A stretch of 20,604 nucleotides of DNA from a virus: IMG/VR virus record IMGVR_UViG_3300032323_002072, positions 1 to 20,604 of that record. One strand, 5' to 3'. Numbering within the stretch: the first letter of the stretch is position 1; each line of letters starts with the position of its first letter. This document shows, in pieces, positions 506-17,139 of the stretch. The translations under genes were made by a program, and so were the position numbers. Below the pieces are notes generated by a model that was not told the origin of the DNA, did no database searches, and saw only the letters and a list, made by a program, of their open reading frames with translations.

Positions 506-512
506 TATTTAA
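506..512 (-). promoter_or_regulatory. TTAAATA late-promoter-like box before the core-protein gene
   Basis: The minus strand reads TTAAATA, then 5 bases, then ATG (500-498). The protease stop TAA (511-509) is nested in the box. It matches the core of the T4 late promoter (TATAAATA) and the CTAAATA form reported for related phages. Promoter function is inferred. Confidence 0.5.
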
Positions 513-1177
513 CTTAATGAGTTGATAAATTTAAGAATTTGATCTTTCAAATAAGCATCCATGTTTTTACTTGGAAGAGTCTTGATTGATTTCTCGAAAT
601 TTTCATACACTTCTTCGAATTCACCATCATCAGACACCACCCATTGTTTTGATTCAAGAATACCATTTACAAAAGCTTTCGGGAATGATGGATCTGCAAC
701 TGCATCAACAGCAACTAGTCTCATATTTTTAACAACGCTGTGTGTTGATTCTTCTTGGATAGAACCAAGGGCTCTTGTTGACATACCAACTTTAACTCCA
801 TCATTGATAAGAGATCTGAGAATTTGGCCCATTGGTGTTGATAACACTTTCGCTTTTCCAAAGAAAGTATCACCTTCTTCGTATAGATCAGTTACCAAGT
901 GGCATGCTCTTTCGAGATTGACATCAGCACTGCTTGGGTGATTCAATTCACCCATGGCTCTTCCGGGAATTACCATTTCTTCAATATATCTATTAACCTC
1001 AGATCGTGTATCATCCAGATTGTATAATCTTCTGTTTTTATTGACCTGATTGCATCCTATGAATGGTCCTTTAACATATAATGAATTACCTTTTTTTAGG
1101 TTATCTTGCTCTTCGATTATTTCGAATCTTTCAAAAAGATCAGGATTTTCTGAGATTAATTTCAATTTCAATGACAT
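509..1177 (-). CDS. 21: Prohead maturation protease (T4 gp21-like)
   Basis: This 222-residue serine protease matures the prohead by cleaving scaffold and capsid proteins. The gp21 family pattern is clear. A strand around residues 33-51 ends in N-x-N-R-R-L-Y, followed by GELNHP with probable catalytic His80, GMSTRALGS with probable nucleophile Ser133 (T4 has GVSSRGLG), and VDAVADPS around 157-164 carrying the acidic residue(s). The length is close to T4 gp21 (about 212). The tail after residue 175 is acidic then basic and may be removed by self-cleavage, as in the family; that is inference. The ATG at 1177 is preceded by TTAAATA with 5 bases between. It sits next to a core-like protein and a probable scaffold gene, as in other T4-type genomes, but here an adhesin block separates it from the portal. 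Confidence 0.93.
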   Translation of the reverse strand: MSLKLKLISENPDLFERFEIIEEQDNLKKGNSLYVKGPFIGCNQVNKNRRLYNLDDTRSEVNRYIEEMVIPGRAMGELNHPSSADVNLERACHLVTDLYEEGDTFFGKAKVLSTPMGQILRSLINDGVKVGMSTRALGSIQEESTHSVVKNMRLVAVDAVADPSFPKAFVNGILESKQWVVSDDGEFEEVYENFEKSIKTLPSKNMDAYLKDQILKFINSLS

Positions 1178-1182
1178 GATAT

Positions 1183-1189
1183 TATTTAA
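1183..1189 (-). promoter_or_regulatory. TTAAATA late-promoter-like box before the protease gene
   Basis: TTAAATA is followed by 5 bases and the protease ATG (1177-1175). No Shine-Dalgarno sequence is visible between box and start. The surrounding 1178-1245 gap is AT-rich and holds nothing else convincing. Confidence 0.55.
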
Positions 1190-1245
1190 TGTATGATATG
1201 TAAAAATATATAATAGAATAAAAGTAATGACGATTATAAGCCATT

Positions 1246-1596
1246 TTATTCTTCGATATTTAGACTTTCATTTTCTGGTAGTAAATTCATGTACTCTTCT
1301 TCACTTAATTCAGCTACATCGGAAATCACACCTTGCTCTATAGCATCTAATAATTTAACTGACCATAGCGCTGTGTATGCCTTTCTACCATCTTTTAAAT
1401 CTGTTAAAGATACAGTATCTGGAAATCTTAAAGCTCTTAATTTTGTATGTTCAGAATCATCCCATCCACATGCGATGGTTTTAACTGTTAAGTGTCCATC
1501 TTGAGCTTCTTCACCATATTGTTCTACCAATTCTGGTAACTGTATTACTAATGTGTCTGGAAAAGCGAATGTTTTAAATGTTGTTAAAAAGTTCAT
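1246..1596 (-). CDS. Unidentified small acidic protein
   Basis: This is a 116-residue acidic protein that I do not recognise. It opens MNFLTTFKTFAFPDTLVIQL and contains a Trp-rich middle (CGWDD at 43-47, ALWSVKLLDAIE around 76-87). It ends with a very acidic helix (ELSEEEYMNLLPENESLNIEE). It has no signal peptide or membrane segment. It lies between the last tandem adhesin and the prohead protease, with 29 bases upstream and 68 downstream, so it is expressed with late genes. A degenerate ACAAATA box lies 14 bases before the ATG, and no Shine-Dalgarno sequence is seen. It could be a small head-assembly, chaperone-like or connector protein. This is only a guess from position. Confidence 0.6.
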   Translation of the reverse strand: MNFLTTFKTFAFPDTLVIQLPELVEQYGEEAQDGHLTVKTIACGWDDSEHTKLRALRFPDTVSLTDLKDGRKAYTALWSVKLLDAIEQGVISDVAELSEEEYMNLLPENESLNIEE

Positions 1597-1625
1597 ATAT
1601 TATATTAGTTTATTTGTTTACATAT

Positions 1626-2423
1626 TCAATATACCCACTGGAATAATCTATCTGAAAATAGAGTATTTCTTAATAAAGTTTCCAGAGATTTATAGTCGCT
1701 TCGTTGGAAAATGTTATTATTTATGTGTATTAAAAATGAATTCATACCACCATTCATAAAAGTAGAACTTGTATTTGTTGTTAAGCCTGTAAGTGTTTGT
1801 GTAGTTGTTCCATAATTTGAACCAATTACATTTGGATTTGATACATATACTGTCGTATCACCAACAACATTTCTAGAAAATCCTGAGAAGGCTATGAAAT
1901 CTCTAATATTAGAAGATCCTATCGAACCACCATAAAATACAGTACTTCTCACAGTATCAAAATAATTAAACCAACTGGTATTTGTCGATACAGTTCCTAC
2001 CATCCAACCACCAGCGTTAATATTATGACCAATAAGACGTTGATTAAATACAGTGAATAATCCTCCGACACAACACATCGTTCCAGTAAAATTATTAGGG
2101 ATATAAGTTAAACTTGTAAAAGTAGGTGTGTTAGTTCTTAGCGTTATTCCATTCGATGTCCATTGTGTAATGTCTGCAATAGAACCATTGAAGATACCTA
2201 ACCCGCCAAGACTGTATATAACAGTTCCCTTACCAGCGTTATGTATACTTCTCATAGGCCAACAAACCATGGAATTCCAAAGTCCTAACTTCTTAACCCC
2301 TAAAACGAATTTATTTAATTGCTTAAGAGGTTCGGGTAAAATAGTAACACCAGATCCTGCCTTTACTCTAGCAGCATAAGCAAGTGTATCTGAATCAAAT
2401 CCGTATGTTCTTGGTCTTGGCAT
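1626..2423 (-). CDS. Tandem LamG-like adhesin paralogue 5
   Basis: This 265-residue protein is the last of five paralogues. Residues 1-90 carry the shared family head: an aromatic 'Y.FD.DT..Y' opening, then FVLGVKKLGLWNSMVCWPMRS, a 'N.G.GT.I.SLGGLGI.NGS' turn, and 'W...GI'. The remainder is Ser/Thr/Asn/Gly-rich beta sequence compatible with a concanavalin A/LamG-like sandwich, but it is more diverged than the siblings. It also lacks the usual LGLP C-terminus, ending instead in LFQWVY. The ATG lies 4 bases after the stop of paralogue 4. The upstream AGGA seen at two sibling junctions is AGCA here, so initiation probably depends on coupling. Proposed role: surface-exposed receptor-binding or decoration protein of the virion. 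The ligand is unknown. Confidence 0.75.
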   Translation of the reverse strand: MPRPRTYGFDSDTLAYAARVKAGSGVTILPEPLKQLNKFVLGVKKLGLWNSMVCWPMRSIHNAGKGTVIYSLGGLGIFNGSIADITQWTSNGITLRTNTPTFTSLTYIPNNFTGTMCCVGGLFTVFNQRLIGHNINAGGWMVGTVSTNTSWFNYFDTVRSTVFYGGSIGSSNIRDFIAFSGFSRNVVGDTTVYVSNPNVIGSNYGTTTQTLTGLTTNTSSTFMNGGMNSFLIHINNNIFQRSDYKSLETLLRNTLFSDRLFQWVY

Positions 2424-2427
2424 AATA

Positions 2428-3240
2428 TTATGGTAATGCTAAATTTTTTCCAACTGTATCTTTAATTAATCTGTGAATAGATGATATTTGATTGGCTGAG
2501 AATCGTCGTTTAGCTATAAATGATACAGCAGCAGTTCCTTCATAAAGACCGCCTCTAGTGAAAGATAGTGTAATAGATGCTGAATTATAGGGAATAGTTG
2601 CAGCATTCGTTCCAGATGTAGATGTTAATACACCATTTCTATATACAGCTGTTCTCTCACCGAATTTACCAGTATACATCCATGAATTAAAACCAGTTAG
2701 CGTATTATCAGCAATACCAAGAGCTGAACCAGCAAATCTAAATTCACCACCAAATCCACTCCTTGGAGCAAACCACATTAAAGTGGTATCTGATACACCA
2801 TCAACTCGTATACCAGTTGCTAATATCCAATTTCCAAACCCTCCCGATGTTGGCATCGTTCCAATAAATCCGGCTGATATCTCTGTTAAATCTACAAGAA
2901 ATGATGGACCTGTCATAGTCGCTCCTTGAGGAAATATACATCCACTAACACTCCCTGTTACGGTTGATGTGAATGTACTTAACTGTCGATTGTATCCATA
3001 ATTTAAGGTTTTAAGAGGCACGACTCGACGATCTGCTATTGAATTATACTTTGCACTGTATAGCCAAATTATCATATCATCCCATACACCTAAACTTTTT
3101 AATCCAATTACAAAGCTATCGATATCTATAGCATCCTCATTAGATATATCAGAGAGACCACTTGCTATTCTATAAGTATTAACGATATTAAGATATCGTT
3201 TTGTATCTACATCAAATGTATATTTTCTTTCTGTTGGCAT
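2428..3240 (-). CDS. Tandem LamG-like adhesin paralogue 4
   Basis: This 270-residue paralogue has the shared head: 'Y.FDVDTKRYL', then IDIDSFVIGLKSLGVWDDMIIW around residues 40-62. The central part (about 80-230) is beta-rich with many Gly/Ser/Thr, including FGGEFRFAG and 'AVYRNGVL', a LamG/ConA-like strand pair. It ends with a helix and KNLALP, a variant of the family's GLGLP tail. Its central region differs strongly from the siblings, which fits diversification of a binding surface on a conserved anchor. The ATG is 1 base after the stop of paralogue 3 (TAA-T-ATG). Initiation may use AGGA 10 bases upstream and a stronger AAGGGG 16 bases upstream, both inside the last codons of paralogue 3. 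Confidence 0.78.
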   Translation of the reverse strand: MPTERKYTFDVDTKRYLNIVNTYRIASGLSDISNEDAIDIDSFVIGLKSLGVWDDMIIWLYSAKYNSIADRRVVPLKTLNYGYNRQLSTFTSTVTGSVSGCIFPQGATMTGPSFLVDLTEISAGFIGTMPTSGGFGNWILATGIRVDGVSDTTLMWFAPRSGFGGEFRFAGSALGIADNTLTGFNSWMYTGKFGERTAVYRNGVLTSTSGTNAATIPYNSASITLSFTRGGLYEGTAAVSFIAKRRFSANQISSIHRLIKDTVGKNLALP

Positions 3241-3241
3241 A

Positions 3242-4054
3242 TTATGGTAGTCCTAACCCCTTTCCGATTGTGTTTTTTACTAATGCTTGTAATATAGGAA
3301 AATCAATATACTGTGTTGATACGATAACAAATGACTGAGTACCAATCCAGCCTACGCCGAAGCTACCTACAGAACATTGCACAACATTATTAAACCATCT
3401 ACCGCATATTAATATACGATCAAAAGATAAATTATTCACAATAACAGCATTTGTATTAGCATAGGTACTATTAAGATAATTTTGAACGCCACCACTAAAT
3501 AATCTACCTCCGTTAAGTCTAATTTGCTGACTATTTATATTCGGTGATGATGCTAAATTACTCCCTGCAAACCATGTATTTCCGTTAGCGCTATTGCTTA
3601 ATATGGAAAAATATGGATGAGTCGTGTAAGATGAACCGCCTATAAATATTTGGTGAGGATATCCATTAGTAAATCCCGGCTGTGGACTAACAGAATTAGC
3701 AACAGAAGCTATAGAAACTACAGATGTTTGTAATGGTCTCCTTAAAAAAGCGGTTATATAATTTGTACCACTGAAAGTTATACCACTCAACCCCCAAGTT
3801 GGTGAATTGACAAGCGTTCCATTAATATTTTGTTCTCCTCCTAAACTTAATATAGTATTACCAGTGCCGATGTTATGCTGACTTCTCATCAAAAAACAAA
3901 TACTAGTTTGCCATAAATTTAGTTGTTTTAATCCTTTAATGAAATTATCAATATCTGATACATCAGATAAATTCAATTCTCTACCGTAAGCATATAATCT
4001 TCTAAGATACTGCCTTGTTTCATTCTGTAAACCATATGATTTAGTCTGTATCAT
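3242..4054 (-). CDS. Tandem LamG-like adhesin paralogue 3
   Basis: This 270-residue protein has a clear family head: 'YGLQNETRQYLRRL', FIKGLKQLNLWQTSICFLMRS, then 'N.GTGNTILSLGG..NINGT' and 'WGLSGITFSGTNY' (about residues 1-100). The rest is beta-strand-rich with tryptophans and short polar loops. It finishes with a C-terminal helix and TIGKGLGLP. It is most like paralogue 1 in the first 100 residues. The ATG is 1 base after the TAA of paralogue 2 (TAA-C-ATG). A strong AGGAGGA lies 22 bases upstream, too far for a normal Shine-Dalgarno sequence, while a weak GAAAAG lies 10 bases upstream. It probably sits on the virion surface as a fibre tip or decoration. Function is inferred from the fold type and the array. 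Confidence 0.78.
   Translation of the reverse strand: MIQTKSYGLQNETRQYLRRLYAYGRELNLSDVSDIDNFIKGLKQLNLWQTSICFLMRSQHNIGTGNTILSLGGEQNINGTLVNSPTWGLSGITFSGTNYITAFLRRPLQTSVVSIASVANSVSPQPGFTNGYPHQIFIGGSSYTTHPYFSILSNSANGNTWFAGSNLASSPNINSQQIRLNGGRLFSGGVQNYLNSTYANTNAVIVNNLSFDRILICGRWFNNVVQCSVGSFGVGWIGTQSFVIVSTQYIDFPILQALVKNTIGKGLGLP
3251..3262 (-). promoter_or_regulatory. Shine-Dalgarno-like AAGGGG/AGGA embedded in LGLP codons (paralogue 3 to 4)
   Basis: The codons of the terminal Lys-Gly-Leu-Gly-Leu-Pro of paralogue 3 contain AAGGGG (16 bases from the ATG) and AGGA (10 bases). The next gene starts one base after the stop. Confidence 0.5.
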
Positions 4055-4055
4055 G

Positions 4056-4883
4056 TTAAAAAAACTTTTCTATAAGTCCTCCTGTTGTCGCTGGAGTAAA
4101 CGTAGGTAATAAATGATTACTCCCCCACCAGTCATATCTAATTCCGTTACTCTCACTTAGCTGCCAATAACTCACTAAACCTGTTAGTAAAGATGGTTGA
4201 TATGCTAAGACTTCAAAAAATGATACTCCTCTACCTAAATTATATAAAAATGTATATTCAGTTTCTGTGAGTATCCTATCCCATCTACCAACTGAGTCTA
4301 CTAAACCATTAGCAGGTCTGCCATTATCTTGCCAGTCTCCAATACAAAACTCCGAGTTGCTAATATTCTGAGTGGCTTGATTTGTTGTTATGGGTATATT
4401 GTTATTGTTAGATAAAAAAATGTTATTGGTAGTAGCATTTCTTCCTAATCTTACAAAATGCCAATTGTTAAGAGGAGCACTCACCGCAGCCGTGCTTATG
4501 TAAGATACTCCTGTCGCAGCAGCATGTATAAATCCATTATTATATCTTAAAGAAAACTCAAAACTGCTAGGAGTATTTGCCGCCTTACTGATAACCTCTT
4601 GAAGATTCGAACTTCTAGGAAAACACCATATGACAACTTCCCATTCGGGCTTAACCTGTAAAGATGAATTACTCAATATTCTAAGTTTTTGTGTACTATT
4701 GCCGTTAAAGACTGGTGATATTTTATTTCTAGTTGATAATAATAGACCAACACCTTTACGCTTCACTATATATTCATTCAATCTTTGAATGCCATTTAGA
4801 TCAGGAGACACACCTCTAGTCTCATCCATTCTTTTAAGAAAATCTTTCGTTTCCTTTTCTAAATTGTAATATCGTTTAGCCAT
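4056..4883 (-). CDS. Tandem LamG-like adhesin paralogue 2 (canonical LamG domain)
   Basis: This 275-residue protein shows the clearest LamG/concanavalin A-like features of the set. It has a polar strand block, NNWHFVRLGRN near residues 140-150 (the 'W.hva...' strand), a variable loop, FCIGDWQDNGRPANG, then VDSVGRWDRILTETEY and a helix. That is the usual 'G.ID.v..w.raLt..Ei..ly' ending of LamG domains. The N-terminal helix (YYNLEKETKDFLKRM) matches its siblings, but the middle of the shared head is replaced. About 50 extra residues follow the LamG end (YWQLSESNGIRYDWWGSNHL), another LamG-like strand set. It ends in LIEKFF, not LGLP. The start is 1 base after paralogue 1's stop, with AGGA at 10-base spacing. 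Its role is likely sugar or surface binding. Confidence 0.82.
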   Translation of the reverse strand: MAKRYYNLEKETKDFLKRMDETRGVSPDLNGIQRLNEYIVKRKGVGLLLSTRNKISPVFNGNSTQKLRILSNSSLQVKPEWEVVIWCFPRSSNLQEVISKAANTPSSFEFSLRYNNGFIHAAATGVSYISTAAVSAPLNNWHFVRLGRNATTNNIFLSNNNNIPITTNQATQNISNSEFCIGDWQDNGRPANGLVDSVGRWDRILTETEYTFLYNLGRGVSFFEVLAYQPSLLTGLVSYWQLSESNGIRYDWWGSNHLLPTFTPATTGGLIEKFF

Positions 4884-4884
4884 A

Positions 4885-5793
4885 TTAAGGTAATCCTAAT
4901 CCGTTGCCTAATGTTAGTTTATAGAGATTATGTATATTTGAATTTAATTGTGATGTTGGAGTATCATTTATACGTATAACTGCTGAAATCAATCCATCAA
5001 AAGGTGCAACTCCAGCTGGACTTCCAAAAGCGCCAATAGCACAACTACCACCACTTTTATTTAAATTGTTTGATAAAGAAAAACTAGAAACTGTCCCACC
5101 ATCCTTACCTCTAAAACCAATATTGGTATTACCTATCAATATTGATTTCCATGACAATGATCTGGCAGCTATATTAGAAGAGGTGAACGCTATTTGAACG
5201 GCGTCGTTCGATGCAAATGAAGGTGATTCTAGTGAAAATGCATCCGTAGCAGAATTATTATCACCTTGTGATAAAACTACCTGTCTGTTTAATAATGTAT
5301 CATTTTTAAGAAATGCCAAGATAGTGGTAGGAGCATTGCCTATTCCAAATGAATTATTCGGTAGAGTTACTCTATCATCAATACCATCAAAATCAATACC
5401 ATTTATTGACCAACTTGCTCCATTTACAATCGTTCCGTTAAGTATGCCTAGATTTCCTAAACTGAAAACAGTTGACCCAGTGCCAGCGTTTTGATAACTT
5501 CTAGTTGGCCAACATACTGTGTTATTCCATAAATTAAGAGCTTTCATTCCTCTAGTAAACCAGAGAACTTCACATCTTCCAACAGCATCATTAACATTCG
5601 CTCTAGTTAGATAAGCATCTCCATCAACATCATTAAAACCTAAACTAAATCTAGACCAATCTCCAGACCTTTTTAATCCTTCAACTCTATCATTTATAGT
5701 CTTTACAGTGGATGGAGAAACATATATATTATTTTCGTCTTGAAGACGATTTATATATGCTTTAACTTCATTCTGTATACCGTAATATTTCAT
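4885..5793 (-). CDS. Tandem LamG-like adhesin paralogue 1
   Basis: This 302-residue protein is the first and longest of the five. The helical opening 'YYGIQNEVKAYINRL' is followed by about 40 extra residues (roughly 48-90, rich in acidic and aromatic residues) absent from its siblings. The family block MKALNLWNNTVCWPTRS, 'N.GTGSTVFSLGNLGILNGT' and WSINGIDFDGIDDRVTLP then matches the start of a LamG/ConA-like domain. The end is a helix plus TLGNGLGLP. The ATG follows the C1q-like gene by 1 base, with AGAAG 8 bases upstream as a plausible ribosome-binding site. The array position and domain type suggest a receptor-binding or virion-decorating protein. Whether it sits on the head or the tail cannot be told. 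Confidence 0.8.
   Translation of the reverse strand: MKYYGIQNEVKAYINRLQDENNIYVSPSTVKTINDRVEGLKRSGDWSRFSLGFNDVDGDAYLTRANVNDAVGRCEVLWFTRGMKALNLWNNTVCWPTRSYQNAGTGSTVFSLGNLGILNGTIVNGASWSINGIDFDGIDDRVTLPNNSFGIGNAPTTILAFLKNDTLLNRQVVLSQGDNNSATDAFSLESPSFASNDAVQIAFTSSNIAARSLSWKSILIGNTNIGFRGKDGGTVSSFSLSNNLNKSGGSCAIGAFGSPAGVAPFDGLISAVIRINDTPTSQLNSNIHNLYKLTLGNGLGLP
4894..4897 (-). promoter_or_regulatory. AGGA embedded in LGLP codons (paralogue 1 to 2)
   Basis: AGGA is 10 bases upstream of the ATG at 4883, inside the Leu-Gly-Leu-Pro codons that end paralogue 1. The geometry is the same as at the paralogue 3/4 junction. Confidence 0.45.
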
Positions 5794-5794
5794 A

Positions 5795-6262
5795 TTACAA
5801 ACTTCTTATATAAGATCCATTGAATTGTGGACTGACATTTGGACTTGATGATTCGGTTATAACAGTGTCTCCAGATCCTTGTATTAGAAACATTTCATAA
5901 AAATCCGTCGTACCATTCGCTGATACAATAGAAGAAAATGTAAGCCCTAGACCTGATGTTGAGTTAACTAATCTAGAACCTCTCTGAAACTCCACGCCAT
6001 TTCTATACAAAGCGAAAATCGAAGTACCTACCGATGGAGCAGCGGAAATGGATAATTGGATACTACTATTCAATTGATAATAGCCGGGAACTGTTGGAGT
6101 GAATCTACTGCTCAGAGTGGAAAAATTATTATTAGTATTAAAATACGTAATATTAAAATTCACCTTAGTCCAAGTTGAATTTGGAAATGTTGTCGGAGTT
6201 CCACCATAAGCAGCGAAAGCTGGACCGTTAAATGTATTAAACCCAGAAAAATATATAGGCAT
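5795..6262 (-). CDS. C1q/TNF-like trimeric domain protein
   Basis: This 155-residue protein consists almost entirely of a C1q-like jelly-roll. Visible signature elements are PAFAAYGG near residue 14, 'WTKVNFNITYFNTNNNFS', the key 'FTPTVPGYYQLN' strand (residues 53-64), 'FALYRNGVEF', then 'TDFYEMFLIQGSGDTV' and a final 'F.G.YI'. C1q-like domains form trimers and are common at the tips of phage fibres and on surface proteins. The length fits a single domain with no stalk, so it probably attaches to another virion protein. The start is supported by an excellent Shine-Dalgarno sequence (GGAAGGAG, 8 bases upstream) inside the last codons of the previous gene. The next gene begins 1 base after its stop. 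Confidence 0.75.
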   Translation of the reverse strand: MPIYFSGFNTFNGPAFAAYGGTPTTFPNSTWTKVNFNITYFNTNNNFSTLSSRFTPTVPGYYQLNSSIQLSISAAPSVGTSIFALYRNGVEFQRGSRLVNSTSGLGLTFSSIVSANGTTDFYEMFLIQGSGDTVITESSSPNVSPQFNGSYIRSL

Positions 6263-6265
6263 AAA

Positions 6266-7006
6266 TTATACTCCTTCCCAAAAAATGTATTGTGCTGATA
6301 CTCCAGATACAGTATTCACGGATACATCACCTTTATATCTATCATCAGAGAATTTTTCACCTCTGCCGTCATATGCTACAACACCCGGATATAACATAAA
6401 ATTGAATGAGTTCTGGTTACATCCCAATCCATACTTAACATACAGCGGAAGTGTTCCTAAATTTTGTCCGAATAAAGTAATACGATTTGAGTTCGCTGAC
6501 AGCACTTGTGTACCAACACCTGTTATAGCAGTTCCTAGTGTGTTACCAGATAGATAGTTAGAAACTGATCCATATCCAACATCGAATGTTGTCACACTAT
6601 CAATATCTTTATCAAGATCTCCCTGTAGTGCCATCAACCCACCGGTTTGAGCATCCACGGTCATGAAAGCATTTGTACCAGTTAGAGCTGGCACAGCTGA
6701 TATGGAAGTTACTGGTGAATAAGATGTAGAGTCAAAATATCTAGCATAAACAGGAACGGTTAAATCATCAATGAATATCTGTAATCTATCCGAGCTTAAC
6801 ATTGAAGTTGTACTAGCACTCAGTACCAATACATTACCCTGTAAATAACCACCTCTTGTGGGATCAGAAAAATTGTAAATAATATTATTACTGGTAACAT
6901 TTGTCACAAGCAATATCTGATCAAGCGATATAGTAGGATAACTTAAAAGCTGTATCCTTCCTACTGGCGATGCTGTAAAGGCATAATTTGTTGTTAGTAT
7001 CTTCAT
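6266..7006 (-). CDS. Beta-rich virion-type protein, function unknown
   Basis: This 246-residue protein is rich in Ser/Thr/Val/Asn with a strong beta pattern and no membrane segment or coiled coil. It opens MKILTTNYAFTASPVGRIQL and has a central MTVDAQTGGLMALQGDLD segment. The C-terminus reads YPGVVAYDGRGEKFSDDRYKG and then YIFWEGV. That last type of ending ('D.YKG.VS......YI.WE') is familiar to me from small head-decoration or fibre proteins of environmental phages, but I cannot name a family. A CTAAATA box lies 13 bases before the ATG with a purine run (GAAAGA) between. Its last codons carry the Shine-Dalgarno sequence for the C1q-like gene. It is probably a structural or decoration protein of the particle. 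Confidence 0.65.
   Translation of the reverse strand: MKILTTNYAFTASPVGRIQLLSYPTISLDQILLVTNVTSNNIIYNFSDPTRGGYLQGNVLVLSASTTSMLSSDRLQIFIDDLTVPVYARYFDSTSYSPVTSISAVPALTGTNAFMTVDAQTGGLMALQGDLDKDIDSVTTFDVGYGSVSNYLSGNTLGTAITGVGTQVLSANSNRITLFGQNLGTLPLYVKYGLGCNQNSFNFMLYPGVVAYDGRGEKFSDDRYKGDVSVNTVSGVSAQYIFWEGV
6271..6278 (-). promoter_or_regulatory. Strong Shine-Dalgarno (GGAAGGAG) for the C1q-like gene
   Basis: GGAAGGAG lies 8 bases upstream of the ATG at 6262. It is encoded by the Trp-Glu-Gly-Val codons that end the preceding gene. It shows that this phage can use classical Shine-Dalgarno initiation, which makes its absence at the box-led genes notable. Confidence 0.75.
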
Positions 7007-7019
7007 CTATATCTTTCGT

Positions 7020-7026
7020 TATTTAG
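7020..7026 (-). promoter_or_regulatory. CTAAATA late-promoter-like box before the 246-residue protein
   Basis: CTAAATA is 13 bases upstream of the ATG at 7006. The wider gap includes a GAAAGA purine run that could act as a weak ribosome-binding site. It probably serves the downstream C1q-like and adhesin genes too. Confidence 0.45.
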
Positions 7027-7033
7027 TTGTATT

Positions 7034-7270
7034 TTAGCCTAAAGCAATGGCCATGGCGACAGCGAAGTTCTCGGATGCTAGTTTAGCACCATTAGCATAA
7101 ACAATGTTTGAAGCGCTGATATTACCAGAGACAGTTAAGAGTTCATTAGGAGTCGATGTTCCAATACCAATTCTATTTGTAAGTATATCACCGTTTGATG
7201 ATAAATTACCGGTTAATGTTATAGTACCACTAATGCTCTGATTCCCTGTATCTATGATATGTCTTGGCAT
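7034..7270 (-). CDS. Short fibre-like protein sharing the fibre repeat
   Basis: This 78-residue protein reads like an isolated tip of a beta-structured fibre. The 'ISGTITLTGNLSSNGDI' strand-turn segment is followed by RIGIGTSTPNELLTVSGNIS, the same repeat found in the 908-residue fibre immediately upstream. It ends in a hydrophobic Ala-rich stretch (NFAVAMAIALG). It may be a separately translated accessory or tip subunit, or a remnant split from the end of the large fibre. I see no frameshift that would rejoin them: the fibre ends in its own TAA 23 bases upstream. A GTAAATA sequence lies 12 bases before the ATG. Confidence 0.6.
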   Translation of the reverse strand: MPRHIIDTGNQSISGTITLTGNLSSNGDILTNRIGIGTSTPNELLTVSGNISASNIVYANGAKLASENFAVAMAIALG

Positions 7271-7289
7271 AATATTTTATTATATTTAC
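7083..7289 (-). promoter_or_regulatory. GTAAATA box (7283-7289) upstream of the short fibre-like gene
   Basis: The box itself occupies 7283-7289 and reads GTAAATA, 12 bases upstream of the ATG at 7270, in a 23-base AT-only spacer. The spacing differs from the 5-6 bases seen elsewhere, so this is a weak call. The span given extends into the 5' half of the gene only because no other signal delimits it. Confidence 0.2.
7113..7171 (-). repeat. Fibre repeat copy in the 78-residue gene
   Basis: A copy of the roughly 60-base unit encoding 'IGIGTSTPNExLTVSGNIS'. It is close in sequence to copies at 7430-7491 and 8120-8181 in the large fibre gene, with scattered third-base differences. The similarity is enough to allow recombination between the two genes. 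Confidence 0.7.
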
Positions 7290-7293
7290 TATA

Positions 7294-10026: not shown

Positions 10027-10034
10027 TATTTATT
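10027..10034 (-). promoter_or_regulatory. AATAAATA late-promoter-like box before the large fibre
   Basis: AATAAATA matches 7 of 8 positions of the T4 late consensus TATAAATA. Six bases separate it from the ATG at 10020. No Shine-Dalgarno sequence is present between them. Confidence 0.55.
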
Positions 10035-10480: not shown

Positions 10481-10779
10481 CGTTGATTTAAATTGGAGAA
10501 ATACTGGGTTCTGTAATATATATCGCCCGAACCACTAGCGGTTTTTGCAGATACCATAGAAGTATTTGTTATACCTCTGAATGTAAATGACTCACTATCT
10601 GCGAGAAGAAACTCATTAGCAGCGCTTGAAAAATTATTATCATATACAAATATATTCTGACCTGTGCGGTTGATGATAATAACTTCAGAACAAGGCTGGC
10701 TTGATAGCGATGTTAGAGCCGTGGTTAATGTTTGCTTAAAAGACCTACATACATTGTTGTTGTAATGAGATGATGACAT
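10477..10779 (-). CDS. Small virion-type protein, function unknown
   Basis: This 100-residue protein has a Ser/Thr/Asn-rich beta pattern: 'EVIIINRTGQNIFVYDN', 'FLLADSESFTFRGITNTSMV', then 'GDIYYRTQYFSN'. The arrangement (strand, 'N.TG..I.VYD', 'F..RG..N...V.AK..SG..YYRTQ') is one I associate with short head or fibre-associated proteins in environmental phages, but no role is established. It is the first gene of the block left of gp4. An AATAAATA box precedes the ATG by 5 bases, and its stop overlaps the start of the next gene. Confidence 0.6.
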   Translation of the reverse strand: MSSSHYNNNVCRSFKQTLTTALTSLSSQPCSEVIIINRTGQNIFVYDNNFSSAANEFLLADSESFTFRGITNTSMVSAKTASGSGDIYYRTQYFSNLNQR

Positions 10780-10784
10780 AAAAG

Positions 10785-10792
10785 TATTTATT
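10785..10792 (-). promoter_or_regulatory. AATAAATA late-promoter-like box
   Basis: AATAAATA, then 5 bases (CTTTT), then the ATG at 10779. It lies in the 29-base gap after gp4 and is a 7/8 match to the T4 late promoter. Confidence 0.6.
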
Positions 10793-10808
10793 AAATATAC
10801 GGATATAA

Positions 10809-11261
10809 TTACTTCAATTCTTTCTCAGTTAAAATTAAAAACTTCCAACCCCTGTCTTTACAATACTTTTCAGCAGCGGGCCATTTACCTTCCGCGTTTA
10901 TAATCCATTGAGTTTGTTCGTATAACAAACTGCTTTTCTTTTTACCTCGTTTAGCTTCTGGTTTTTTAGTTTGTTTGTGTGGTTTAATCTCGATGAGATA
11001 TTTCACCACCGTGTTTCCTTCTAAAATCTCAACATAATTATCAACATAATACTTATGCCACTTTCCGTCAACTTTTGACACATACGGCACAATAACATTT
11101 TCACTACCCCATTTCAAAACATTCGGGTTGTTATCACAGAACATAAAGAATTTACACTCTAACCCACTTCTATATATGGCAGTTTTGCCCATATATTTTT
11201 TAGGATTTTTGGGAGTGTATATTCCCTGTCTGAATCGTTTGTCTCTTTTAAGAGGAAGCAT
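10809..11261 (-). CDS. 4: Head completion nuclease (T4 gp4-like)
   Basis: This 150-residue protein is the same length as T4 gp4 and co-linear with it. Matching blocks are 'G.Y.PKNP.KY.G', 'YRSGLE.KFF...D.NP....WGSE...VPY', 'DGK...Y.VD', 'YLIEIKPHKQTK.P', and the ending 'KW.AAEKYC..RG.KF.ILTE..L'. Glu35, Asp74 and the EIK at 91-93 give a PD-(D/E)XK nuclease-like pattern. In T4 this protein (gp50 and gp4 are the same product) helps complete filled heads before tail joining, probably by trimming DNA at the portal. It starts 8 bases after the homing endonuclease stop. A TTAAATA box lies 5 bases before the ATG, and the endonuclease stop codon forms part of that box. Confidence 0.92.
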   Translation of the reverse strand: MLPLKRDKRFRQGIYTPKNPKKYMGKTAIYRSGLECKFFMFCDNNPNVLKWGSENVIVPYVSKVDGKWHKYYVDNYVEILEGNTVVKYLIEIKPHKQTKKPEAKRGKKKSSLLYEQTQWIINAEGKWPAAEKYCKDRGWKFLILTEKELK

Positions 11262-11266
11262 GTTAA

Positions 11267-11273
11267 TATTTAA
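11267..11273 (-). promoter_or_regulatory. TTAAATA late-promoter-like box before gp4
   Basis: TTAAATA, 5 bases, then the gp4 ATG. The homing endonuclease TAA (11272-11270) is inside the box, so the insertion ended without disturbing, or while recreating, the gp4 signal. Confidence 0.55.
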
Positions 11274-12961
11274 ACATTGTAATGTTTAACGAATACATAA
11301 TTGCCGCAATCCCAAATTCGATCATATCCATTATTCATCATGTTTTTCCATTCAGAATCATCGGGATTATACTTATCAAGCAGTTTATTTAAATGATGCT
11401 TTGCGAATTTGTATCTGTGATACAAATTCAAAGTGTTCGATTTGTGAAAATACCAATAGTTGGGCTGTGATATCTTAGTAAGAGTAAATCCCAACTTGTG
11501 ATACACATCGCCCACGCTCCACCGTCTATCAGCATATGATAATAAATAAGTTGGGTTATATGTTCGCTCAAAATATTTAAGTAATTTCGAAGAACCACCG
11601 ATAATATTAAATCCTCTAACTGACGCTACTCTAGCGAGTTCATATGAGCCTTCTTTATTCGCATTTCCCAATGATTTTCTCAATTTGGAAAATGTCATCA
11701 CCTGAACCAATCTATTTTTATAGAATAATCCCAAATTTATACAGGACACAGTATCGCCTTGGATGTGATATTTTTCATTGAATTTCTTTTTGACATCTTT
11801 TGATATTTCACGAATCTCACATTTTCTAGCAAATATTTTATGCCGATTGAGTCCCAAAATATTTTTTATTTTATGTTTGACCAAGTTTGAATTTTTTATC
11901 CATTCCCCTTCAAATATATGAATCAAACGAACGCCTTGTATTTCACAGCGTTTGGTTTTTGTTATATGATATTGTCTGTCTTTTCCTTGTATTTCAGAGT
12001 GGAAATAATGACCGTTGTATTCGATTGCTAACTTATGATCTGGTATATACAAATCAACCTCCAGCGGCTTTATAAGCTGCCTGTGATTTTTAATGTAAGG
12101 AACTCCGTAATCGGATAGAAACTGCCGGATCTCAACTTCCGCTTTGGTATCACTTTTTGAACACGCCTGACATCCCTTCCCATTTAAGTGATCATATGCT
12201 CTGATCTGAAAATTTCCGTGTTTTTTACACACTATATCAACTTTATCATGCGCGATGGTATAATTCACAAATGAATAATCATATAAGTCTCCGTGCTTTA
12301 AAATTGACTTTCTGATAAATTCATCTGTGGTTGACCTATTTAATTTGCTGAGTTTTTCACCTTTACACTTAGGGCATCCCGATGAGCTATTGATATGAAG
12401 ACTTGGAGCGCATTTAAATATTCCATGCTTTTTACATTGGATATCGACTAGTTGATCGTTTGATTTATATACTACACTGGAATAGTCATATTCATCACCA
12501 TGAACAAACCTCGCTTTTTTGATAAATGAGCTTGTATCATCTCTCAATGCATCTTTTCGCACTTCGTATGAGCATTTTCTACATCCAATTCCAGATAAAT
12601 GAACATTAGGTAATTGTTTAAATTTTCCGTGATCTTTGCAAATTATAATAACATTATCATTGGATGTTTTGTATTCAACTTCTGAATAATCATACATATC
12701 ACCGTGTGTAATTCTGCATCTTTTTACAAATTCATCAGTTCCAATTCTTTTATTTTTCCCATTCGACAGTCGGGCGCATTTTTGACATCCCATGCCTCTG
12801 AGGTGATCGGATGCAAGTTGTTCAAATTCACCGTGTTTGGAACATATTATCTTAACTTTTTTTGAAGATGAAACATATTCGCTTAAACTGTAATTGTATT
12901 TTTCGCCATGTATCTCTTTAGATCGTTCTAAGAAATCACATTGGGATAGACGCTTGCTCAT
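11270..12961 (-). CDS. Free-standing homing endonuclease, Vsr-like with four zinc-type repeats
   Basis: This 563-residue protein has three parts. Residues 8-270 contain four repeats of about 65 residues (DUF723-like). Each has 'HG..Y.YS...Y', then a putative zinc site CxxH-x9-H-x5/6-CxxC (C40/H43/H53/C59/C62; C108/H111/H121/C127/C130; C176/H179/H189/C196/C199; C245/H248/H258/C264/C267). Residues 273-370 form a Vsr-like nuclease with Glu275, EVD at 301-303, 'IEYNGHYFHS' at 313-322 and 'YH..K...CE..G.RLIHIFE..W'. Residues about 375-563 are a further domain resembling the GNAT-like module of related phage endonucleases ('ELARVASVRGFNIIGGSSKLL', then 'SYADRRWS.GDVYHKLGF'). It is intact, lies between two head/neck genes, and has its own promoter. 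It is a selfish mobile gene, dispensable for the virion. Confidence 0.85.
   Translation of the reverse strand: MSKRLSQCDFLERSKEIHGEKYNYSLSEYVSSSKKVKIICSKHGEFEQLASDHLRGMGCQKCARLSNGKNKRIGTDEFVKRCRITHGDMYDYSEVEYKTSNDNVIIICKDHGKFKQLPNVHLSGIGCRKCSYEVRKDALRDDTSSFIKKARFVHGDEYDYSSVVYKSNDQLVDIQCKKHGIFKCAPSLHINSSSGCPKCKGEKLSKLNRSTTDEFIRKSILKHGDLYDYSFVNYTIAHDKVDIVCKKHGNFQIRAYDHLNGKGCQACSKSDTKAEVEIRQFLSDYGVPYIKNHRQLIKPLEVDLYIPDHKLAIEYNGHYFHSEIQGKDRQYHITKTKRCEIQGVRLIHIFEGEWIKNSNLVKHKIKNILGLNRHKIFARKCEIREISKDVKKKFNEKYHIQGDTVSCINLGLFYKNRLVQVMTFSKLRKSLGNANKEGSYELARVASVRGFNIIGGSSKLLKYFERTYNPTYLLSYADRRWSVGDVYHKLGFTLTKISQPNYWYFHKSNTLNLYHRYKFAKHHLNKLLDKYNPDDSEWKNMMNNGYDRIWDCGNYVFVKHYNV
11270..12961 (-). mobile_element. 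Homing-endonuclease gene insertion between gp13 and gp4
   Basis: The reading frame is intergenic and not inside an intron. It carries its own promoter on the upstream side and ends 8 bases before the gp4 start. Related phages place gp13 and gp4 in other orders, so the empty-site junction cannot be defined from this sequence alone. Confidence 0.6.
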
Positions 12962-12969
12962 TATACATG

Positions 12970-12999
12970 TATTTATAAAGTATGATCTTTTTATGTCAA
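12970..12999 (-). promoter_or_regulatory. Hybrid sigma70 / late promoter of the homing endonuclease
   Basis: A perfect -35 TTGACA (12999-12994) is followed by 16 bases and TATAAATA (12977-12970). TATAAATA is an exact match to the T4 late consensus, and its first six bases (TATAAA) also serve as a 5/6 sigma70 -10. The ATG follows 8 bases later. It is the only site in the window where I found a full TTGACA at proper spacing. Confidence 0.65.
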
Positions 13000-13015
13000 A
13001 TTATTTTTAATAACA

Positions 13016-14158
13016 TTAGGAAATAAGGAACATCGGAGGCTCAAAGTCACCATATCCACCTTCGACCAGCATTTGTTCCAATGCTTCTTTTTCTTTATTT
13101 CCTTCAGCTAGGATTGTATCTCCACTAAAATTTCCACCTCCAAGTAAAGAAACTCCAGTTATTTTTGTTAGGATTCTTCCCCACATAACTTTCGTTAATG
13201 CTATACTATAATCAAGAACCCATTTTTCTTTAATTATATCTCGGATTGGTTTCTCTACATAGCAAGACAACACACCATAGAATCTTGTATTTTTTGGTTG
13301 TGGGTACATTTTGAGATACTGTGTTCTTGGATCAAAATGCAGATCTCTTCTTATTGCTAAGAGCTTCTCTCTTGTATCAATCCAATCTTTCATAGTGTGC
13401 CATGAAAGAAGATCGAATCCATAATTACCCATCGCATAACTGAAATATGTCTGCTGTGCCAATGTTTGTTCCAATGTGAACAATGTGTTGATACCAGTTG
13501 TGCTGCCTTCTTCAAAGTCGGTGACTGAGATTACTTTACGGTAATCCATCACATCATAATCAAACATGTTGTTATATTGAACAGCGTTTGCAACTGGTTG
13601 ACACTGAGAAGAAATCACTCTCTGCGGTGACATCTTAAACACTGAGCTGAGTGATGGGCTATAATTTACAAACTCTTTATATATAAGATCATCAATCACT
13701 TGCATTTCATAGATACCATCTGACGCAACTGCTGAACTCAATGAACTGCTACCAGAAAAATATGATTGCGGTATTGATGTTAATGATACATAGAGAGCTT
13801 TCGGAATGTCAACTGTGAAGTCTGGATTTGATCTTGCTGGTTCTGCTAACCGCTGTGATAATGTGAATCCAGTGTTCGCCACCGTAAACAGGTGATCTAA
13901 TCTCAACCCTTTATTCGGCTCATATAAATTGCTATCGAAAATTAAATATTCTCTTGTATAGCCCGCATACTTTGTGAAGAATTCAACAGACATTGATATT
14001 GCATCATATAATTGATCGGGGTGTATTTCCACATTGATGATGGGATGTCCCAACATTCTCATTATGCGTTCACCCAACTGTTGGTAACATTCAATTTTCG
14101 AATTGAGATTAGTTGACATGAATGCACTAATCGGAGTAATTTGACAAAGTTCGGACAT
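13016..14158 (-). CDS. 13: Neck protein (T4 gp13-like)
   Basis: This 380-residue neck protein joins the portal of the filled head to the tail. The N-terminal region after residue 25 reads 'LGERIMRMLGHPIINVEIHPDQLYDAISMSVEFF', the typical gp13 pattern ('..LG.Pvi.v.v...Q..daI..Al.yf..Y'). The C-terminal third has 'REKLLAIRRDLHFDP..QYLKMYPQP', 'IIKEKWVLDYSIALTKVMWGRILTKI', then 'LLGGGNFSGDTIL' and a short acidic end. All of these are expected in gp13 homologues of environmental T4-like phages. It is somewhat longer than T4 gp13 (about 309). The extra length lies mainly in the Ser-rich middle (about 95-200). A TTAAATA box is 5 bases before the ATG. The usual partner gp14 is not in the window. Confidence 0.85.
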   Translation of the reverse strand: MSELCQITPISAFMSTNLNSKIECYQQLGERIMRMLGHPIINVEIHPDQLYDAISMSVEFFTKYAGYTREYLIFDSNLYEPNKGLRLDHLFTVANTGFTLSQRLAEPARSNPDFTVDIPKALYVSLTSIPQSYFSGSSSLSSAVASDGIYEMQVIDDLIYKEFVNYSPSLSSVFKMSPQRVISSQCQPVANAVQYNNMFDYDVMDYRKVISVTDFEEGSTTGINTLFTLEQTLAQQTYFSYAMGNYGFDLLSWHTMKDWIDTREKLLAIRRDLHFDPRTQYLKMYPQPKNTRFYGVLSCYVEKPIRDIIKEKWVLDYSIALTKVMWGRILTKITGVSLLGGGNFSGDTILAEGNKEKEALEQMLVEGGYGDFEPPMFLIS

Positions 14159-14163
14159 GTTAT

Positions 14164-14170
14164 TATTTAA
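14164..14170 (-). promoter_or_regulatory. TTAAATA late-promoter-like box before gp13
   Basis: TTAAATA, 5 bases (ATAAC), then the ATG at 14158. Unlike three other boxes, it is separate from the upstream stop codon (portal TAA at 14181-14179). Confidence 0.6.
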
Positions 14171-14178
14171 TGGTTATA

Positions 14179-16011
14179 TTATTCTGGTTGACCTTCTCCT
14201 GTAGGTGGAGTTGTATTTGCCTCCCCGCCAAACGGTTCAGGCGTTTCTCCTCCACCAGCTTCAACTGCTGGTCCGCCACCAAACGGTGGTGGCATTTCGC
14301 TGCCACCTGAAGGCATTCCACCGCCTCCCATCGGAGATGGTTCAGCGCCACCCTCCACGGGCGCTGCTTGCGCTGCCATTTGAGCTTTCCAGCCCGGTCC
14401 CATTGCAGCGATCTGTTGAAGCTCCCACTGGAATTCAGCATCTTTTCTTCTAAACTCTCTATCAGCTAATATATCCTTGTCACTCCATTCTAGATATTTC
14501 TTCTTGGCGAAGATATCAGAAACATTCTGCGTACCGATAACACTGTTATACATTTCGACCTTTAATTGCTTCTTTTGATTTTCGCGCATCTCGAAGAATG
14601 TGCCGGGCTTGACAAATTCAATATCGATGTGTTGCTCTTCGATATCGTATTCTTCAAATTTTTCTCGTAATTTAAGATGTGTTATAAATCCTTTTTTAAT
14701 GCCTGCTGCGAATTTTTGCTGTTGACGAACAATCATCTTGGCAAATTTCAATTCTTCATTCAGCATTTGAGAACCATCAGACACTCCAGAATCTTCTTTG
14801 AGTCTGTTGGTTGGGACTTTTAGAGAGCGGTATAATTTCTTCAGGAACCAATCCAGAACATCTAGATTGCCATCACTTGGTTGACCTCCAAATGTCTGAA
14901 CATTTGTAGCTTCCTGTCCCTGTCTCTTGGCGAACCAATAACTATCCAACATGCTCTGTGGATTGTATTTTTTAACAATGTCGTTTTGATCACTATCAAA
15001 TGTTTTTGTTGACCAATATTGTTGTTGAAGTTTTCTCAAGTATGACTCCGCTTGAGGAACAGGCATTCTTCCTACATCGACATTGAAGATGAATCGAAGA
15101 GGAGCGTGTACAAGTCTATGAATGACAACACTGTCTTCGATCATGGAAAGCTGACGATATGAGCGTCTGCAATTTTCAATGAATGGAATTACGAAATCTT
15201 TAGTCTCGTTGTATTGTTCGTTATTGACATATATAATTTGATTCTCCTCAAAAGGTATATACTCATATCTATCGATTTGCTTCTTGTCTTTAGAATCAAA
15301 AATTGGTTTTTTATACAAGAATCCCTTGATCAACATGTTCTGTATGTTGCCATACACTGGATCTATATTATCCGCTGGTAAATTTTGAACTGCTAAAATA
15401 CCTTGCTTGGTATAATCCTTGTGAATGATATTCTCAAAGAATATTTCTCCTTCAATTAAAAATTGTCTAAAATAACGCCAGCCTTTATTTTTTAAATCAA
15501 AGTACTCAATGAATTTGCTGAATTCATCATGCAAGTCTTCTTTTTCTGTTGATTTTAAATTATCATTTATGAAGTTTAAAACTACAATTTCTTTATTGTC
15601 ATTGTAGTTGATACACTCATCGCAGATTTCATCCAAAGCATCAGCGACTTCTGAATACGCCGCAACCGTTCTATAGTCTCTGAGACGACCCGGTTTATCC
15701 TCAGATACAGTTGCGTACATGATGTCTCCGAAACTGGAATCATTGTGCATGAATCCATATGGAGTGTTATTGAATTCGCTGCTGAGAGCTATTGAATTTT
15801 TCGCAATAGCCTCCGGTCTTCGCATCCCAACCTTTTTGAAATACTTATATTTTGTATTTTTATTTTCGTCGGTGTCTAAAACGTCATAAGCATATGGCGA
15901 TCTTGCTTTTAGAAATGATGTCATAGATCTATCAAAAGTTGATGATCTTCCATCTCTAGCTACAAAATTTTTATTGTTGCTTTGGGTGCTTGAACTATCG
16001 GAGCCTGCCAT
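14179..16011 (-). CDS. 20: Portal vertex protein (T4 gp20-like)
   Basis: This 610-residue dodecameric portal protein forms the DNA gate at one head vertex, initiates prohead assembly and binds the packaging motor. Family blocks are 'RTVAAYSEVADALDEICDE' near residues 112-130, 'YFDLKNKGWRYFRQFLIEGEIFFE', and 'VIHRLVHAPLRFIFNVDVGRMP....AE.YL'. Further blocks are 'PSDGNLDVLDWFLKKLYRSLKVP.NRL', 'EELKFAKMIVRQQ..FA.GI' and 'FEMRENQKKQLKVEMY'. T4 gp20 is about 524 residues. The surplus is mostly a Gly/Pro/Glu-rich disordered tail from about residue 545 to the end (MGGGGMPSGG-type sequence). The ATG at 16011 follows a CTAAATA box by 6 bases; the stop of the gp15-like gene is inside that box. The flanks are gp15-like and gp13 genes. 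Confidence 0.95.
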   Translation of the reverse strand: MAGSDSSSTQSNNKNFVARDGRSSTFDRSMTSFLKARSPYAYDVLDTDENKNTKYKYFKKVGMRRPEAIAKNSIALSSEFNNTPYGFMHNDSSFGDIMYATVSEDKPGRLRDYRTVAAYSEVADALDEICDECINYNDNKEIVVLNFINDNLKSTEKEDLHDEFSKFIEYFDLKNKGWRYFRQFLIEGEIFFENIIHKDYTKQGILAVQNLPADNIDPVYGNIQNMLIKGFLYKKPIFDSKDKKQIDRYEYIPFEENQIIYVNNEQYNETKDFVIPFIENCRRSYRQLSMIEDSVVIHRLVHAPLRFIFNVDVGRMPVPQAESYLRKLQQQYWSTKTFDSDQNDIVKKYNPQSMLDSYWFAKRQGQEATNVQTFGGQPSDGNLDVLDWFLKKLYRSLKVPTNRLKEDSGVSDGSQMLNEELKFAKMIVRQQQKFAAGIKKGFITHLKLREKFEEYDIEEQHIDIEFVKPGTFFEMRENQKKQLKVEMYNSVIGTQNVSDIFAKKKYLEWSDKDILADREFRRKDAEFQWELQQIAAMGPGWKAQMAAQAAPVEGGAEPSPMGGGGMPSGGSEMPPPFGGGPAVEAGGGETPEPFGGEANTTPPTGEGQPE

Positions 16012-16017
16012 ATATCT

Positions 16018-16024
16018 TATTTAG
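16018..16024 (-). promoter_or_regulatory. CTAAATA late-promoter-like box before the portal gene
   Basis: CTAAATA, 6 bases, then the ATG at 16011. The TAA stop of the gp15-like gene (16023-16021) forms the centre of the box. Confidence 0.55.
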
Positions 16025-17127
16025 ATAATATTTAGATTAAAAGGCCAATAAGTCCACCCTGCACTATTAGAAGTTACAAAAGTAAAATTATTAAGCGCTG
16101 AAAGTGAATTTACAGGAAGATTTATTCTAGCTGTGTTGTCAGATTCAACTGTGATTAATGAATCTGGCAAACGATAAGCTGATATTGTCGGGAAATTATC
16201 CATTTTAATTTCTTCGAATGTTCCGATGGAATAATTTGAATTTGAACTCAAATACCAACTATTTGTATAGCTAAATCTCTTACCCAATATTAAAAACGAA
16301 TTATCGTAATTTGATCTGATGGTTATCGGTTCTGTAATTGGTAATATGGTTGCAGATCTGGCATAATACAAATTCGTGAATGTTGGATATGCTGATATGG
16401 ATATAGTTTCACTCTCGGTGTATTTTGCTGATAGTGCGGGGTAGCTATCATACACACTCAAACGACCAGCTAAACTAGCATTTATAAATTTATTATCTAT
16501 TTTATAAATTATACCTTCTGGATTAACGGTGGGTGGGAATAACCATCCCTTGATCGTAAAGTTGGCATCTGCTGTGATTCTATATTTATCATCTTTTGAA
16601 AGCGTAGTTGGAGCGGAATATGAAACGCTTCCAGCCCACTCAACTTGGATTCGCAATTCATCAATGAAATTGAATCCAAATTCCTCTGGAATTTTCCAAG
16701 AAACTACAAAATACGGATTACAAACAGTTGCGAAATTTTGAACTATCTGATCAATATCTTCTTTATATTTTGCAATAATGGAAACTTTAACATCCATCGT
16801 GACCGGTATGGGAGTTGGCAACTTACCCATTCGGGTGTTGTCATTCGCCATCGGTCTGTATATGTTTTGATGCTTGTGTACTACTCTGTCTGGATCTCTA
16901 GCAAGTCCAGTTTGTTCAATTGCAACAACTGGTAATGTTAGATTTTTTTCTTTGGATACAATATCATGAATTACTCGATGCTTTGGTCCATGAACATACC
17001 GAACATCTATTCTACTTTCGCTTTGTTTTGTAACTTGATTGTATCTATATATAAACGCATCGTCGAATGCTGCGGTGAACAGCATAAGCATGTCTATTTG
17101 TTCTCTATGATATGAGTATTGTATCAC
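16021..17127 (-). CDS. 15: Tail-sheath stabiliser (T4 gp15-like) with C-terminal extension
   Basis: This 368-residue protein's first 210 residues follow the gp15 pattern of environmental T4-like phages. It has 'YSYHREQ...LMLFTAAFDDAFIYRYN', 'RIDVRYVHGPKHRVIHDI', then 'LTLPVVAIEQTG' with a Leu-Pro block near 103-107. 'VTMDVKVSIIAKYKEDIDQIVQNFATVCNPYFVVSW' follows, then a strand-rich end before GWLFP. gp15 caps the sheath and tail tube at the neck end. T4 gp15 is about 272 residues; about 155 extra Ser/Thr/Tyr-rich beta residues follow here. The start is GTG: an in-frame TGA directly precedes it, and a TTAAATA box sits 5 bases upstream, the same spacing as at ATG-starting neighbours. It is the first virion gene after the replication block. 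Confidence 0.72.
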   Translation of the reverse strand: MIQYSYHREQIDMLMLFTAAFDDAFIYRYNQVTKQSESRIDVRYVHGPKHRVIHDIVSKEKNLTLPVVAIEQTGLARDPDRVVHKHQNIYRPMANDNTRMGKLPTPIPVTMDVKVSIIAKYKEDIDQIVQNFATVCNPYFVVSWKIPEEFGFNFIDELRIQVEWAGSVSYSAPTTLSKDDKYRITADANFTIKGWLFPPTVNPEGIIYKIDNKFINASLAGRLSVYDSYPALSAKYTESETISISAYPTFTNLYYARSATILPITEPITIRSNYDNSFLILGKRFSYTNSWYLSSNSNYSIGTFEEIKMDNFPTISAYRLPDSLITVESDNTARINLPVNSLSALNNFTFVTSNSAGWTYWPFNLNII

Positions 17128-17132
17128 TCAAA

Positions 17133-17139
17133 TATTTAA
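17133..17139 (-). promoter_or_regulatory. TTAAATA late-promoter-like box marking the start of the virion block
   Basis: TTAAATA, 5 bases (TTTGA), then the GTG start at 17127. It sits in the 33-base gap after the helicase gene and is the first such box met when reading from the replication genes. It supports the GTG start. Confidence 0.55.

Follow-up and report, generated by a model that had tools for sequence, protein, structure and literature searches.

The IMG/VR record IMGVR_UViG_3300032323_002072 was analysed in its entirety, and its 20,604 nucleotides (nt) are referred to here as the window. Every gene in it lies on the minus strand. Gene content identifies the window as part of the genome of a myovirus of the T4 superfamily: homologues of gp20, gp21, gp13, gp4, and the sheath stabilizer stand in a T4-like order, and helicase, GroES-like, and clamp-loader-like genes occupy the right end. 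Our subject is a short box with the core TAAATA, shared with the late promoters of T4, that lies a few bases before the start codons of several of these genes (Table 1). Its position is expressed as the gap, that is, the number of nucleotides between the box and the start codon. The original prediction, made from the window alone, was that such boxes stand 5 or 6 nt before virion genes and could be late promoters of leaderless mRNAs; the box positions and gaps that it listed (5, 6, and 8) are all correct on the minus strand.

Table 1. Genes and late boxes of the window, with the gap from each box to the start codon
Feature	Position	Strand	Details
Late box TTAAATA	506..512	-	gap 5 to ATG of 48-500; TAA doubles as stop codon of 509-1177
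Gene in gp22-scaffold position	48-500	-	no family match
Head maturation protease (gp21-like)	509..1177	-	phrog_207, E=3.7e-57
Late box TTAAATA	1183..1189	-	gap 5 to gp21 ATG
Virion protein-like gene	6266-7006	-	late-like box CTAAATA 7020..7026 at gap 13; predicted leader 8 nt
Gene	7034-7270	-	weak late-like box GTAAATA 7283..7289 at gap 12; predicted leader 7 nt
Late box ATAAATA	10027..10033	-	gap 6 to ATG of 7294-10020 (tail-fibre-like, 908 aa)
Late box ATAAATA	10785..10791	-	gap 5 to ATG of 10477-10779 (no family match)
Head closure protein (gp4-like)	10809..11261	-	phrog_218, E=1.2e-48
Late box TTAAATA	11267..11273	-	gap 5 to gp4 ATG; TAA is the homing endonuclease stop codon
HNH/homing endonuclease, insert between neck and gp4 genes	11270..12961	-	phrog_559, E=1.3e-148
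Perfect late box TATAAATA	12970..12977	-	gap 8 to homing endonuclease ATG; predicted leader 3 nt
Neck/head-tail adaptor (gp13-like, neck Ad2)	13016..14158	-	phrog_211, E=6.4e-21
Late box TTAAATA	14164..14170	-	gap 5 to neck gene ATG
Portal protein (gp20-like)	14179..16011	-	phrog_213, E=3.6e-87
Late box CTAAATA	16018..16024	-	gap 6 to portal ATG; TAA also terminates 16021-17127
Second upstream late-like box CTAAATA	16029..16035	-	gap 17, within the end of 16021-17127; conserved in close relatives only
Tail sheath stabilizer-like gene, GTG start	16021..17127	-	phrog_227, E=4.3e-18; matched by T4 gp15
Late box TTAAATA	17133..17139	-	gap 5 to GTG of 16021-17127

Of the 24 gene starts in the window, six have TAAATA at gap 5, two at gap 6, and one at gap 8. 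A box at gap 5-6 is thus found at 8 of 24 gene starts vs 0 of the 444 other minus-strand ATGs (Fisher P ~1e-11), and shuffling of the upstream 20 nt leads one to expect 0.24 such boxes. Simple counting does not reveal this effect, since the motif HTAAATA occurs at chance level in the window (29 matches vs 32 expected from shuffles); it is the position that is non-random. Shine-Dalgarno motifs are present at 3 of 25 called starts, none of them at a boxed gene, and the leftward replication-type genes at 17161-20323 carry no box, as originally described.

The window has no close phage record, the best identity of its portal to any such record being ~29%. Within IMG/VR, 78 related loci were found, with portal identities of 50-99%. 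Ten larger relatives were taken in full (contigs of 144, 139, 185, 93, 85, 83, 74, 67, 50, and 48 kb), several of which are fragments, and the lineage counts given below refer to 11 records, namely these ten and the window, with 1,338 called genes. Genes in all records and controls were called by one simple script. There are two near-duplicate pairs, G001/G002 (both found in lakes) and G010/window; the duplicates were removed for the virion-versus-replication and word-composition counts, and the family count was grouped by protein family.

When all 6-mers were scored at all distances from the 1,338 starts, TAAATA at gap 5 was the strongest combination of word and position of all, being found at 159 genes vs 4.8 expected. 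In single records it ranks first or nearly first everywhere except in G011, where the leading word is the shorter AAATA, again at gap 5; this gap is a sharp mode in almost all records. Because the 159 genes span 98 unrelated protein families, the pattern is not one inherited gene counted repeatedly. Words of the same composition are far rarer at gap 5: the next reaches 65 and is a shifted TATAATA, most stay below 20, and the reverse complement occurs three times. Genome-wide enrichment of the 5-6 nt spacing had been set beforehand as a test of the original prediction, and it is present in the relatives.

The box is also conserved at individual genes. It precedes the portal gene in every relative with a complete portal gene start, at gaps of 5-12 nt and with divergent flanks; it precedes gp21 at gap 5-8 wherever a relative contains this gene, and the neck gene in seven of eight non-duplicate relatives. 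The GTG start of the gp15-like gene is boxed in the window and in its near-duplicate G010; in G001 a similar TAAATA falls within the coding sequence of this gene and was not counted. A spacing of exactly 5-6 nt therefore describes the window well and is slightly too strict across the relatives, where the portal box varies in position. In form the box is of the T4 type, with a core of TAAATA preceded by A or T (sometimes C), a variant of the 8-bp TATAAATA at the -10 position; a C before TAAATA is known from the late box of phage Aeh1. We conclude that an uncultured lineage of T4-like water viruses carries close late boxes.

Bacterial transcripts tend to begin at a purine preceded by a pyrimidine. 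At -1 relative to the start codon, 94% of gap-5 genes (n=155) have C or T, as compared with 59% of genes with no box (n=868) and 46% in T4, an initiator-like bias that supports the predicted transcription start. T4 late boxes occupy -13 to -6 (PMC1524935; PMC2988020), so that a box at gap 5 would place +1 on the A of the ATG. No information content suggestive of a -35 element was found at -36 to -29 among 263 box genes, and T4 late promoters likewise lack one (PMC2988020).

Boxes are restricted to particular genes and places. After removal of near-duplicates, 27 of 55 virion core genes are boxed vs 2 of 64 replication genes (P=2e-9). The separation of virion from replication genes by the box, as originally claimed, therefore extends to the relatives, with the proviso that some virion genes (gp23, gp15, and operon-internal gp4) are unboxed. 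Box frequency follows the spacing of genes, from 3% where genes overlap to 81% of gene pairs 8-9 nt apart; boxes are frequent where there is room or where the neighbour is divergent. In 40 of 291 boxes, three of them in the window, the gene upstream is terminated by the TAA of the box itself, and about 100 boxes lie before a gene with an opposite-strand neighbour upstream.

The gp4 gene offers a natural experiment. Where it directly follows the neck gene it is boxed in 0 of 17 relatives; where more than 1 kb of insert separates the two, it has a gap-5 box in three of six. The boxed cases are the window, with its homing endonuclease, and L049 and L061, where different inserts of 3-4 kb intervene; L018, L026, and L051 are unboxed although similarly separated. 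This pattern favours a promoter, since gp4 would require a translation signal in either layout, and a promoter only in a broken operon. At 11267-12977 of the window, the homing endonuclease bears one late box before its start and another over its stop, and the latter would serve gp4. In T4, inserted homing endonucleases contain promoters for downstream genes (PMC2988022).

A gp55-like sigma gene, which the original prediction had suggested looking for, is present in eight of the ten relatives (phrog_234, E 2e-24 to 8e-30). The gp45 sliding clamp was found in six relatives by iterated profile search, and in one directly with phrog_223.

Shine-Dalgarno motifs are scarce throughout the lineage. 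In the ten larger relatives, 0-10% of starts have one at gap 4-12, as compared with 24-54% in T4 and cyanophages (54% in T4 itself). A second class of starts is marked by TATAAT ending 6 nt before the start codon (84 genes vs 3.4 expected); TTGA lies upstream of it with a 16-nt spacer in 42 of the 84, and the -1 base is a pyrimidine in 94%. In sequence, TTGA-16 nt-TATAAT-6 nt-ATG is a sigma70-type promoter whose predicted +1 again falls on the ATG, so that for the late class at gap 5 and for this class at gap 6 alike transcription is predicted to begin on the start codon. By an accepted rule, leaderless genes are recognised in silico from a -10 box lying about 12 nt ahead of the start codon (PMC3160421). 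The TATAAT class is strongest in G003 (L102, L109-L111), among the small genes of early type in the 0-7 and 145-184 kb regions.

Further elements accompany these early starts. A conserved AAGGAA[A/C] at -23 to -18, inside the spacer, occurs in G003 and also in G001, G004, G006, and G007, and G011 has ACGAACT in its place; the element is possibly a site for a phage activator. At 86-119 kb of G001 (L086, L087) and in G002, CTAATAARAAACTA[GA]A occurs some 12-17 times, ahead of a TATACT-like -10 that lies 7-9 nt before the ATG; by sequence this is a separate early promoter family. Beyond what was originally proposed, early transcripts thus also seem to be leaderless or very short-leadered, and leaderlessness would not be limited to late genes. 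A phage-encoded bS21 was tested as the cause and rejected, being absent from the window lineage.

How are these boxes best explained? We regard it as very likely that they are T4-type late promoters giving leaderless or near-leaderless mRNAs. Host RNA polymerase carrying the phage gp55-family sigma would read the box; its transcripts would begin with the first letter of the start codon where the gap is 5, and a few nucleotides ahead of it where the gap is 6-12. Placing the start there would make the late mRNAs leaderless or nearly so, and ribosomes would recognise the 5'-terminal AUG or GUG with no need of a Shine-Dalgarno sequence. We infer that the boxes are used, that +1 lies where T4 geometry would put it, and that ribosomes initiate at the 5' end. 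Strict leaderlessness is predicted for the gap-5 mode; the remaining boxes predict leaders of 1-8 nt. A wider proposal, toward which we lean with a good deal less assurance, is that the entire lineage gave up 5' leaders and Shine-Dalgarno sequences, with both late transcripts (gap 5) and early ones (TTGA-16-TATAAT-6-ATG, or in some members other early boxes at 5-9 nt) starting at or near the start codon. If true, this would imply that the host, or the ribosomes of the infected cell, are specialised in initiating on leaderless mRNAs and that genes inside operons rely on translational coupling.

Several observations weigh against promoters of this kind. The gp55 region lies outside the 20.6-kb fragment, so that gp55 itself is not within the window; a T4-like clamp-binding C-terminus is not evident, as judged by eye, in the gp55 of the relatives; and the gp33 co-activator was not found in them with phrog_254 or with a small profile, gp33 being short and divergent and several records incomplete. 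Many virion genes, including the major capsid gene gp23, have no adjacent box. These must be read from upstream promoters and need another route of translation initiation. In marine relatives the portal box lies 9-12 nt from the ATG, with a predicted leader of 4-7 nt, and the start codons called by our script are mechanical. Before gp23 in G001, G002, G008, and G010, where there is neither an adjacent box nor a Shine-Dalgarno motif, we observed an alike stretch (GAAACAGA..ATACGT..ACAT).

The original prediction also allowed for an A/U-rich translation signal, and the box could be such an element, contacting the ribosome or S1 on longer mRNAs without being a promoter, a role that has been suggested in hosts which make no use of Shine-Dalgarno sequences. 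These genomes have 30-37% GC and almost no Shine-Dalgarno motifs, and the bases directly upstream of starts are A/T-rich in every class, all of which would suit such an element. Yet anagrams of TAAATA are not similarly enriched, replication genes in the same genomes go without the box, and overlapping and operon-internal genes, which need translation too, are unboxed, gp4 acquiring its box only when cut from the operon. Nor would a ribosome signal explain a -35 hexamer with a 16-nt spacer in the parallel class, and the -1 pyrimidine fits transcription initiation. We therefore consider this explanation improbable, and the T4-type late promoter, with its -13 to -6 geometry, gp55, -1 pyrimidine, and accompanying leaderless sigma70-type class, has become the better supported of the two. 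Less probable still, to the point of being negligible, is an artefact of tight gene packing, in which TAA stops and A/T-rich fixed spacers happen to spell TAAATA. The overlap of box and stop codon in 40 of 291 cases and the 81% of boxed 8-9 nt spacers would suit such an artefact, but the boxes with an opposite-strand upstream neighbour involve no stop codon and contradict it, other A/T words and spacings are not enriched, and T4-like controls of similar GC lack the pattern.

It is harder to set aside the suggestion that the boxes are late promoters whose usual product is an mRNA with a short leader (1-8 nt) or with mixed start sites, so that strict leaderlessness is not the rule. RNA polymerase is flexible in its choice of start site, orthologous genes such as the portal show gaps of 6-12 nt, and gap-7 genes carry a T/A pair at -3/-2, the place at which a short leader would predict it. 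Gap 5 is nevertheless the sharp mode in nearly all records, and the pyrimidine-before-A signal is strongest there; we give this alternative perhaps one chance in three. Late promoters that place transcription at or next to the start codon remain, for us, the preferred explanation.

The T4 late system (gp55, gp33, and gp45; TATAAATA) shares with this lineage the TAAATA core, the lack of a -35, the service of virion genes, and gp55 and gp45 homologues. It differs in that the T4 box typically stands 17-30 nt or more upstream, with a leader that bears a Shine-Dalgarno sequence, whereas the distance is 5-8 nt here and the Shine-Dalgarno is missing; the first two box positions are also looser here than in T4. 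With the same script, the T4, S-PM2, and Syn9 controls show no box at gaps 5-7, and the dominant signal of T4 is Shine-Dalgarno. The cyanomyoviruses S-PM2, Syn9, and P-SSM4 have late promoters of the form NATAAATA, with the same core, upstream of late gene homologues (PMC2984593). Unlike those of the window lineage, their boxes lie mostly 17-60 nt upstream, with none at gap 5-9 in S-PM2 and Syn9 and three in P-SSM4.

The same gap-5 geometry does occur in cultured isolates, namely the Pelagibacter phages HTVC008M and Mosig and the Methylophilales phage Melnitz. Exact gap-5 boxes number 11 in HTVC008M, 6 in Mosig, 3 in Melnitz, and 2 each in P-SSM4 and AG-345-O18 (L146-L235), and the boxes of these five are bimodal, at gap 5 or at least 13 nt away, with few or none at 6-12. 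Their sequences suggest that they mix leaderless and leadered late genes; the occurrence of both modes in one cultured phage makes the prediction testable in culture. HTVC008M and Melnitz keep Shine-Dalgarno motifs at 45-50% of starts, whereas the window lineage has almost only close boxes. We also noted bS21 genes in HTVC008M, Mosig, and Melnitz (L236-L238), which are phages with both spacings. Leaderless genes of Actinobacteria and Deinococcus-Thermus obey the same rule, with the first T of a -10-like box 11-12 nt before the start (PMC3160421), but in those bacteria it is a box of the host housekeeping sigma, and in the window lineage mostly that of a phage late-sigma class alongside a sigma70-like class. 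In the open literature we found no earlier description of late mRNAs without leaders from T4-like phages, from cyanophages, or from pelagiphages, although subscription papers may contain one.

As to the host, scans of genome contigs with the portal protein and its alignment returned no related sequence, and a test for WhiB, as a sign of an actinobacterial host, gave a negative result. The missing Shine-Dalgarno motifs prompted us to consider Bacteroidota. Promoters in that group are of a different, -7/-33 type; the early class resembles TTGA/TATAAT, and this host was not adopted. Some other features of these genomes deserve mention. About 20 tRNA genes each, almost a full set, are found in G001 (C1:128-138 kb, L088) and G003 (C1:50-59 kb, L104). 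In the window, four tandem genes of 265-302 aa at 1626-6262 resemble one another in their N-terminal motifs (G-D-TK-YL / VxGLKxLGxW), match no family, and are probably a repeated gene array of tail-fibre or adhesin type.

T4 late transcription is a textbook case in which the promoter and the ribosome-binding site are separate modules. In the lineage described here the two would be fused, and the position of the promoter alone would fix the start of translation. Few natural examples of abundant virion proteins made from leaderless mRNA would then be as clear as these viruses, which would also mark hosts, or infected-cell ribosomes, with a preference for such mRNA. HTVC008M and Mosig grow on Candidatus Pelagibacter ubique HTCC1062, where both modes could be compared within one infection. 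For those who annotate such genomes, the position of the box may serve as a practical rule for recognising true start codons and transcription units.

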